64,000 bases of DNA from Prochlorococcus sp. AG-409-P01 (lineage in GTDB: Bacteria > Cyanobacteriota > Cyanobacteriia > PCC-6307 > Cyanobiaceae). The translations under genes and the position numbers were made by a program. This document shows, piece by piece, positions 39,524 to 41,937 of the stretch. Positions within the stretch are counted from its first letter, which is position 1; each line of letters starts with the position of its first letter. The stretch spans positions 62,001 to 126,000 of the forward strand of contig QCKM01000002.1 in NCBI GenBank assembly GCA_003215335.1. Reading direction: 5' to 3'. A model generated the notes under the pieces. That model was not told the DNA's origin. It was given only the letters and a program-made list of their open reading frames with translations, and did no database searches.

Positions 39524-39595
39524 TTTTTCTATAAGCTTGCTTTTGAACAAAGACATCATTGATCATCAACTACTTGATAAGGTGTAGATGCTGCT

Positions 39596-39684
39596 GGAGA
39601 GGTGGCTGAGTGGTTGAAAGCGGCTCCCTGCTAAGGAGTTACAGGAGGCAACTTCTGTCGAGGGTTCGAATCCCTCCCTCTCCG
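39596..39684 (+). tRNA. tRNA-Ser (anticodon GCT)
   Basis: The 89-base class II tRNA has the acceptor GGAGAGG paired with CCTCTCC and discriminator G. The anticodon stem CTCC/GGAG lies around CTGCTAA with GCT at 34-36, followed by a long variable arm (TTACAGGAGGCAACTTCTGT) and the T-arm GGTTCGAATCC. It decodes AGC/AGT. Confidence 0.96.
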
Positions 39685-39879
39685 TTTTAAACCTTGGAAA
39701 GTCTCAAAGATTTTGAAACCGTTTAAAAAATTAGGCATCAACTGGCCATATCAATTTTAGTTTTTTATATCTTTCAAAAATTCTTTTTTTAGAGAGGATT
39801 TCATGTATTCGTGATTAGAAGCTAATGATTGGAATGGATTTCAAGGAAGCGCTTTAGGAAGTTGTTGTTGCGACCAGGG

Positions 39880-39889
39880 TGCTTGAATA
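39880..39889 (+). promoter_or_regulatory. Shared element TGCTTGAATA, copy 1
   Basis: This exact 10-mer also occurs at 40341 and 41080, each time 28-35 bases before the start of one of three related small membrane-protein genes. A further similarity upstream, TTTAGGAAG, is shared by copies 1 and 3. It could be part of a promoter or of the 5' leader; the sequence does not decide. Confidence 0.45.
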
Positions 39890-39913
39890 CCTTGATAGCT
39901 CTTGGATTAATCA

Positions 39914-40261
39914 GTGGCAGATCGCAAAGCCGAAGCAGATCGCAAAGCAGCAGAGAAGAAGAAAGCCGAAGCAGATCGCAAAGCTGCAGCAGATCGCAAA
40001 GCAGCAGAGAAGAAGAAAGCTGACGCAGATCGCAAAGCCGCAGCAGATCGCAAAGCAGCAGCTAATAAGAAGACAATTTCTTCAACTCAAGTTGCTTCTG
40101 GTAAGCCAATCAAGACAGTCTCTGAACAAAAACGCGATAGTCGAAATGAATTCCTGACCGTCTCTGTCTATTTGAATGCAGGCAAAATCGCTGGACTTGT
40201 TTCGGTGGGGGTTGTCGCTGCAGCGGTTCTTGTAACTGCCCTCACTTTTTTAGCAAGGTGA
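39914..40261 (+). CDS. Repeat-containing small membrane protein with SVYLN signature (member 1)
   Basis: I do not recognise a named family. From GTG 39914 the product has 115 residues. Residues 2-53 are charged repeats, nearly three copies of an 18-residue unit built from ADRKA(A/E) and AEKKKA(E/D), predicted to be helical and TolA-like. A linker follows, then NEFLTVSVYLNAGKIAGLV and one transmembrane helix ending TFLAR. The end NEF-TVSVYLN plus helix is clearly similar to the 44-residue protein at 41115, which supports this reading frame. The other two forward frames are also open across the repeats but lack this homologous end. Confidence 0.65.
   Translation: MADRKAEADRKAAEKKKAEADRKAAADRKAAEKKKADADRKAAADRKAAANKKTISSTQVASGKPIKTVSEQKRDSRNEFLTVSVYLNAGKIAGLVSVGVVAAAVLVTALTFLAR
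39917..40072 (+). repeat. 54-nt tandem coding repeat (about 2.9 copies)
   Basis: Units begin at 39917, 39971 and 40025 with GCAGATCGCAAAGC. Each 54-base unit contains two GCAGATCGCAAA submotifs and a GAGAAGAAGAAAGC segment, replaced by GCTAATAAGAAG in the last copy. Period and phase keep the frame. Copies differ at a few third positions. Confidence 0.9.
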
Positions 40262-40340
40262 TTGGAGCAGACTTTCTTGGAAAAATGACCTTTCTTGTCT
40301 GAGGCAACTTTTTTCAGTTCACCAACATGCTCCTTTTCAG

Positions 40341-40350
40341 TGCTTGAATA
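40341..40350 (+). promoter_or_regulatory. Shared element TGCTTGAATA, copy 2
   Basis: Second exact copy of the 10-mer, 28 bases before the TTG at 40369 or 34 before the TTG at 40375. Like copy 1, it continues with C at the next base. Confidence 0.45.
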
Positions 40351-40374
40351 CTTCCCTGAACTAAGGATTTGAAA

Positions 40375-40962
40375 TTGGTACGGATACGAGAGCGAGTCCA
40401 GGAGATTGTCGATTTTGCAAAGACAGAATCTCCATATAGATCTGCAAATAAAGGATGGGTCACTGACGATGTTTATTTGCAGTGGGGCCCTGCTGCAGAT
40501 GAGTCTTCTACTGATGGCCGAGAGCTTGCAGAGGTTTCTATTTATTGGGAACCAATCAATCAAATTGCATTAATAATTTTTGCCGTTGTTTTGATTGCAA
40601 CAATCTTCGTTTTCTCTGCAGTTTCCTTGTCTCATGGGAAGTTCAGGATATTCCCAACCACTTTTGACTTCACTCCTAAACAAACGATTCAGGAGGTGAA
40701 GGTTCTTTCGACTTCTGAAGTTGACCAGCCTCAGATTGATGCCTCTACATCTGAAGATTTGATAGTCGAATCTGAAGTAGATGCAACAAAGCCTCTGACT
40801 GAGACTTCCTCTGTGATGTCCAGACCAAAGACTGAAGCTCCCAAAATTGATTTGACAGGTCCACAGGCTGGCAAAGATCGTTTTGGTGATAATCAAAGAA
40901 ATGTTGCGAGAAAGTTCAAAGCTAAAACTGCTGTTGATTTGTTCCAAGCGAAATCCCGCTAA
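40375..40962 (+). CDS. Membrane protein with related SIY signature (member 2), unknown function
   Basis: The 195-residue protein has a charged N-terminus (VRIRERVQEIVDFAKTE), then GRELAEVSIYWEPINQIALIIF leading into one transmembrane helix near residues 65-88. After that comes a long acidic, Ser/Thr-rich tail ending in basic KFKAKTAVDLFQAKSR. ELAEVSIYW before the helix resembles NELATISVYLN in member 3 and NEFLTVSVYLN in member 1, although this similarity is weaker. AAGGA at 40363-40367 is seven bases before TTG 40375 and only one base before TTG 40369, so 40375 is preferred. Function is unknown. Confidence 0.6.
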   Translation: MVRIRERVQEIVDFAKTESPYRSANKGWVTDDVYLQWGPAADESSTDGRELAEVSIYWEPINQIALIIFAVVLIATIFVFSAVSLSHGKFRIFPTTFDFTPKQTIQEVKVLSTSEVDQPQIDASTSEDLIVESEVDATKPLTETSSVMSRPKTEAPKIDLTGPQAGKDRFGDNQRNVARKFKAKTAVDLFQAKSR

Positions 40963-41079
40963 TCCTGGTTCCCAGTAAATAGTCTGTTTTGGTGGAGTTT
41001 CCTTGAAAAAAGGTTGTCTGCGTTTTTTTGAAGGAATTGTTTTAGGAAGGAATTCTTTGGACCTTCTCTTAATAGTTGA

Positions 41080-41089
41080 TGCTTGAATA
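41080..41089 (+). promoter_or_regulatory. Shared element TGCTTGAATA, copy 3
   Basis: Third exact copy, 35 bases before GTG 41115. Upstream TTTAGGAAG at 41041 and GACC at 41060 match the same elements before copy 1, suggesting that both upstream regions share ancestry. Confidence 0.45.
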
Positions 41090-41114
41090 TTGGTTCGTAT
41101 TTAGGTCCTCTCAA

Positions 41115-41249
41115 GTGGCAGAAAAAAAAGGAAATGAGTTGGCAACCATATCTGTTTATCTAAATACACCAATAGCAGCAATCCTTTTGGGTGTTGGCTT
41201 CATTGTTGGCTCAGTTCTTTTCGCTGGTGTCATGTTGATTGCTAGATGA
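41115..41249 (+). CDS. 44-residue membrane protein with SVYLN signature (member 3)
   Basis: From GTG 41115 the frame encodes MAEKKGNELATISVYLNTPI followed by one transmembrane helix rich in glycine and ending MLIAR, then TGA. The core and the helix end (VYLN...LxAR) match the C-terminal 38 residues of the protein at 39914, so a paralogous domain is encoded by itself here. No function is known. Evidence for translation is the paralogy and frame conservation; the Shine-Dalgarno is poor. Confidence 0.6.
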   Translation: MAEKKGNELATISVYLNTPIAAILLGVGFIVGSVLFAGVMLIAR

Positions 41250-41700: not shown

Positions 41701-41937
41701 TTAGTTACCGCCTTTGCAGTAGTGAACTGCCTTGGCTATGCCTTGAGAAGCTTTGAGCTCCTTGACGCAGTCATTGAATGATGCTGATTCTTTTTTGATT
41801 GGGCAAATCATGAAGGCGATTGCCAATAAAGAGATTGCGCCCAATGCTCTAGAACTTAGACCTGCTGCTCCAAAGACATACCAAAGAATTCTTTTCCTTG
41901 TTGAGCACTTCTTTGCTTTTTTGCCCATGGATTTCAT
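41701..41937 (-). CDS. Small membrane or secreted protein of unknown function
   Basis: The 78-residue protein has a basic N-terminus (KKAKKCSTRKR), one or two hydrophobic stretches (ILWYVFGAAGLSS, LGAISLLAIAFMICPI), then a polar tail FNDCVKELKASQGIAKAVHYCKGG with two cysteines. The tail, with its spaced cysteines, may lie on the outer side of the membrane and could form a disulfide. I do not recognise the family. A second start, ATG 41928, would shorten it by three residues. Confidence 0.55.
   Translation of the reverse strand: MKSMGKKAKKCSTRKRILWYVFGAAGLSSRALGAISLLAIAFMICPIKKESASFNDCVKELKASQGIAKAVHYCKGGN

Follow-up and report, generated by a model that had tools for sequence, protein, structure and literature searches.

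Three small neighbouring genes of Prochlorococcus sp. AG-409-P01 are, close to certainly, paralogs of one family. They share a core of about 38 residues (N-E-L-x-x-(I/V)-S-V-Y-L-N followed by one predicted membrane helix) and differ in their N- and C-terminal extensions, as the original prediction had proposed and as our profiles and alignments bear out. The main oddity of the cluster, which this prediction missed, is the long polycationic helical rod carried by gene 1. The family is restricted to Prochlorococcus, and all three genes are preceded by a 10-mer, most likely as an element of a common promoter.

In the window, i.e. the whole stretch of 64,000 nucleotides analysed, the gene order is tRNA-Ser, genes 1 to 3 and a DUF1651 gene (Table 1), and a few kb beyond the latter lie psaL-, psaB- and psaA-like genes, so named from reading their sequences. 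The ORF listing and the alignments returned the three frames, their motifs and their coordinates as first described. The start of gene 2 was set at the TTG codon in position 40375, because the relatives begin there with GTG or TTG; the TTG at 40369 called by the ORF tool is unsupported by these starts. A basic small protein of 78 aa, with a hydrophobic stretch and no significant family match, is encoded on the opposite strand at 41701-41937.

Table 1. Features of the three-gene cluster and of one gene-1-type paralog outside it (window positions unless a genome is named).
Feature	Position	Strand	Description	Evidence
tRNA-Ser (GCT)	39595..39685	+	upstream neighbour kept in several relatives	ARAGORN, window and relatives
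TGCTTGAATA element, gene 1	39880..39889	+		motif count, slot test
Gene 1	39914..40261	+	GTG start, 115 aa; K/A-rich helical N-part, C-terminal membrane anchor	ORF, homologs, helical model of G010 homolog
54-bp (18-aa) tandem repeat	39917..40062	+	codes the K/A-rich rod of gene 1; possibly collapsed here	TRF
Gene 1 family core	40145..40258	+	NEFLTVSVYLN + TM helix	HMM, BLAST
TGCTTGAATA element, gene 2	40341..40350	+		motif count, slot test
Gene 2	40375..40962	+	TTG start, 195 aa	51-sequence alignment, AlphaFold2
Gene 2 family core	40519..40641	+	RELAEVSIYW + TM helix	profile-profile match to gene 3
Gene 2 C-terminal KTAVDLFQAKSR peptide	40924..40959	+	recurs in many relatives	alignment
TGCTTGAATA element, gene 3	41080..41089	+		motif count, slot test
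Gene 3	41115..41249	+	GTG start, 44 aa, minimal family member (core + TM helix)	ORF; dN/dS vs relatives
Gene 3 family core	41133..41246	+	NELATISVYLN + TM helix	own-genome search, gene 3 alignment
908-aa gene-1-type paralog	G051:C1:830500-839500 (L258), frame starting at 1856	-		open frame

Using a combination of methods (own-genome search, HMM and profile-profile comparison, shuffled alignments and substitution rates), we found that the likeness of the cores goes beyond a mere hydrophobic helix. Used as a query, gene 3 matches gene 1 in its own genome (E=0.0013), and the score of the gene 1 and gene 3 cores is reached by 0/5000 shuffles, in which flank and membrane segment were randomised separately. 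The same test gave 4/5000 for the gene 2 and gene 3 cores, and the profile-profile comparison of these two genes yielded a probability of 96.7-96.9 % and a score of 54, as against a maximum of 22 over 100 column shuffles, again performed within flank and membrane segment. An HMM built from the gene-1 and gene-3 cores matches 88-aa gene-2 homologs in four genomes (E 2e-8 to 2e-11). Direct alignment of the gene 1 and gene 2 cores is not significant (889/5000 shuffles reach the score), which could be taken to mean that the cluster consists of small hydrophobic ORFs that have no common origin and share the 10-mer by chance. This reading carries next to no weight, as it is already refuted by the profiles, the bridging 88-aa homologs, purifying selection and the conserved upstream element; on the sequence evidence, gene 3 and the short homologs of gene 2 connect genes 1 and 2. 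Purifying selection acts on genes 2 and 3 (for gene 3 against relatives, dN is 0.02-0.08 and dS about 0.5-1.5, above 0.5 in every pair). Within the gene 3 alignment, G28 is invariant and mostly followed by a small residue four positions on; this invariant core glycine is lost from gene 2 in most relatives.

The profile search in relatives, which the original prediction had called for, did recover the family, and each of the 79 loci confirmed in the collection of named genomes belongs to Prochlorococcus or to uncultured picocyanobacterial records. We surveyed 334 picocyanobacterial genomes with a completeness of 85 % or more; the gene-3 profile matches 81 and the gene-2 profile 39, none of the latter in genus g18, where about 41 genomes have gene-3-type matches only. 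We take g18 to be the high-light clades; MIT 9302, 9201 and 9401, whose loci in the named collection are of the same type, support this tentative equation. In this survey gene 1 was not seen in any high-light-type genome, and gene 3 is widespread, yet missing from many of them. The wider class gave one marginal partial match only. That the family has no name holds in the databases searched: no Pfam or NCBIfam model matches genes 1-3 above its curated cut-off (sub-threshold composition matches only), PHROGs gave no match at E<0.001, PDB sequences gave no match to any solved structure, and the literature searched yielded no paper that names the family. A phage origin was considered and rejected, as IMG/VR yielded no confirmed relative and PHROGs nothing significant.

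The three genes had been viewed as the product of local expansion by tandem duplication, a view that our data do not support. In a tree of the cores, which is rough because it has only 38 columns, the gene 1 sequences form one clade (support 100/97, four partial gene-1 rows mislabelled as gene 3 being included) and the gene 2 sequences another (100/100). Both clades span species; therefore, the duplications predate the divergence of the carrier lineages and, as judged from these sequences, are ancient, with no recent local expansion. The genes are also dispersed in some genomes, such as G010, where gene 3 lies about 726 kb away from genes 1-2. In the genomes that we take to be of the MIT9313 type, a short gene 2 stands directly behind gene 3.

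Concerning the upstream 10-mer, the claim of an exact copy ahead of each gene stands, with three copies of TGCTTGAATA in the window versus 0.28 expected (0/100 shuffles reach 3), and the spacing, formerly given as 28-35 bases, measures 34, 34 and 35 bases from the start of the element to the start codon of genes 1, 2 and 3, respectively. The whole genome harbours 8 copies, the other five of which are not ahead of family genes and apparently lie inside other reading frames. We then restricted the scan to the slot between 18 and 42 bases upstream of the start codon, using rows chosen without regard to the motif, many of which are related, so that the counts are not independent events. The 10-mer is exact in 18/18 gene 1 loci, has at most one mismatch (at least 9 matches) in 32/47 gene 2 loci, and reaches nine or more matches in 22/81 gene 3 loci, the element being absent from gene 3 in many lineages; the two control slots gave 0. 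Among rows picked for the exact motif, the modes of the spacing to the start codon are 24, 24 and 25 nt, and the start codon is GTG in 61/65. The G of TGCTTG is replaced (T, C, A) in some relatives. The near-fixed spacing thus suggests a promoter element, and coordinated expression of the three genes would follow, although the would-be -10 box has T as its second base, where the standard -10 hexamer has a critical A; a regulator site is possible. Exact and relaxed searches in up to 8 genomes for a wider regulon returned scattered matches, which fell mostly inside genes wherever we looked at the context, and revealed no further conserved target. An intergenic TGCTTGAATA occurs in genome G051 (L218, motif at position 1501), some 85 bases ahead of a frame for a response regulator (MTGNSSASKETILVADDE...), and may be there by chance.

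Gene 1 varies widely in length. Its homologs span 105-457 aa overall, with frames of about 280-457 aa in closed or single-contig genomes; most drafts either show 105-151 aa or have a contig that breaks off within the gene, and one of them, G183, shows 283 aa. The source genome is itself a draft (31 contigs, 1.78 Mb) and, in view of the longer frames of closed genomes, the 115 aa observed here may therefore reflect a collapsed repeat, an assembly artefact. Draft assemblies seem to interrupt or shorten the repeat, and gene 1 is thus probably under-reported and mis-sized in public genomes. The rod consists largely of six-residue A/K/D/E repeats, rich in lysine and alanine; in the intact copies measured it comprises 235-397 residues with a net charge of +39 to +65 (about +16 per 100 residues) and 1-3 P/G. 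For the G010 homolog, AlphaFold2 run without an alignment predicted helices at residues 6-166 and 202-358 (157-161 residues) and a terminal membrane helix at 372-394; reading of sequence and model places the single membrane helix at the extreme C-terminus, and no signal sequence was seen. Away from the main cluster, G051 has a second gene-1-type copy, a frame of 908 aa in which about 840 residues of charged helical repeat precede the family core. This second rod is nearly charge-balanced (+4.9 per 100), so not every copy requires the charge. Nor does the family depend on having a rod, since the MIT9313-type genomes have genes 2-3 and no clear gene 1.

Two described classes of proteins resemble gene 1 in part. 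Stable single alpha-helix (SAH) domains, as characterised in PMC4183817, are low-complexity charged helices without P/G, and the long continuous helix predicted for gene 1, together with its few P/G, agrees with this description. Acidic-basic i,i+4 pairs, which are regular in SAH domains, abound in the 908-aa paralog; the usual gene 1 rod, rich in A and with a strong net positive charge, has such pairs from K to E and almost none from E to K, so that in most other copies the pairing runs in one direction. Similarly to bacterial tail-anchored proteins, as described in PMC3087755, gene 1 is predicted from sequence and model to have a single C-terminal membrane helix, with no signal peptide seen; the family differs from them in that gene 2 has an extended C-terminal tail.

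This second gene comprises an N-terminal helix, a conserved ESPYRSANKGW stretch, the family core with its membrane helix, a disordered tail and a C-terminal TAVDLFQ peptide common to many relatives. The 51 aligned gene-2 sequences all agree at eight positions (E, F, S, P, Y, A, W, W). From these sequences AlphaFold2 predicted an N-terminal helix (2-15), a long one (46-86) that contains the membrane segment, a disordered tail and, where the recurring peptide lies, a short helix (185-189). The idea of a known fold was dropped, the model being helices and disorder only with a pTM of 0.31, i.e. no confident globular fold. The flanks of the membrane helix are slightly negative on the N-side (mean -0.9) and slightly positive on the C-side (+0.5), which leaves the positive-inside rule ambiguous; the opposite topology is therefore possible.

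From this anatomy we propose, with a probability of roughly 0.4, that the cores pack as membrane helices and that gene 1 acts as a cytoplasmic electrostatic tether or spacer. The family cores would share the same membrane, probably the thylakoid, and would pack together through a GxxxSmall motif, made up of the invariant glycine and a small residue at the fourth position after it. As the rod would be too long and too positive for easy translocation without a signal, we expect it to stay cytoplasmic, where it may serve as a tether or spacer on an anionic partner, e.g. the nucleoid or the surface of an adjacent membrane. Gene 2 would recruit a partner through its conserved peptides, and the 10-mer, as a shared promoter part, would coordinate the expression of the three genes. 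In a bolder form, which we hold to be distinctly unlikely, private interacting helices would keep polycationic rods of tens of nanometres on internal membranes, thereby forming a thylakoid/nucleoid ruler or tether of low-light lineages with its dedicated promoter element.

The genes might instead encode small accessory subunits of a photosynthetic membrane complex (a photosystem or the Pcb antenna), with the core helix binding the large complex and the extensions of genes 1 and 2 being regulatory. The antenna of Prochlorococcus differs from that of marine Synechococcus, so a Prochlorococcus-restricted family with a single short membrane helix would suit such a role, as would the psaL, psaB and psaA neighbours in the window and psaB/psaL-like genes, again named by reading, nearby in G109. 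This proximity is, however, not kept in G010, no sequence match to solved structures and no chlorophyll-binding motif were seen, and the absence of gene 3 from many high-light genomes also speaks against this role, which we regard as rather unlikely. We are slightly more sceptical of a nucleoid or polyanion anchor, in which the gene 1 rod, in the manner of histone H1, would tie DNA, ribosomes or polyphosphate to the membrane. Bacterial histone-H1-like proteins have a polycationic K/A repeat of variable length, as does the gene 1 rod, and the charge, lysine/alanine richness and few P/G of the rod fit this idea; the likeness is one of composition only, the rod differing in its few prolines, its acidic residues and its membrane anchor, and both the near-balanced rod of the 908-residue paralog and the lack of any DNA-binding domain found argue against it.

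A rod crossing the periplasm in the manner of TolA (TIGR02794 / PRK09510) is highly improbable. Like TolA, gene 1 has a long Ala/Lys/acid-rich helical segment on a single membrane helix, and it matches the TolA model of NCBIfam weakly (E=1.7e-4, 21 bits, below the cut-off of 59.45 bits), over the low-complexity part only and owing to its helical-repeat composition. The TolA architecture, with an N-terminal membrane helix and periplasmic domains II and III, is not that of gene 1, where the anchor is at the opposite, C-terminal end, the C-terminal TolA domain (domain III) is lacking and the adjoining paralogs are unrelated to TolA; moreover, export would have to proceed without a signal.

Prochlorococcus, which is among the most abundant photosynthetic cells, has a streamlined genome, and nevertheless keeps this unnamed family, genes 1 and 2 of which were seen only outside high-light-type genomes. 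Should the gene 1 rod serve as membrane spacer or tether, it would be a concrete candidate for what sets low-light and high-light lineages apart in the organisation of their internal membranes. As a separate observation, in 24 of 34 gene-3 loci of the VKVYLNT type examined (L149-L185), a small protein beginning MEVLLFALFF..., with an N-terminal membrane helix and an E/K-rich tail, is encoded on the opposite strand 0.3-0.7 kb from gene 3.
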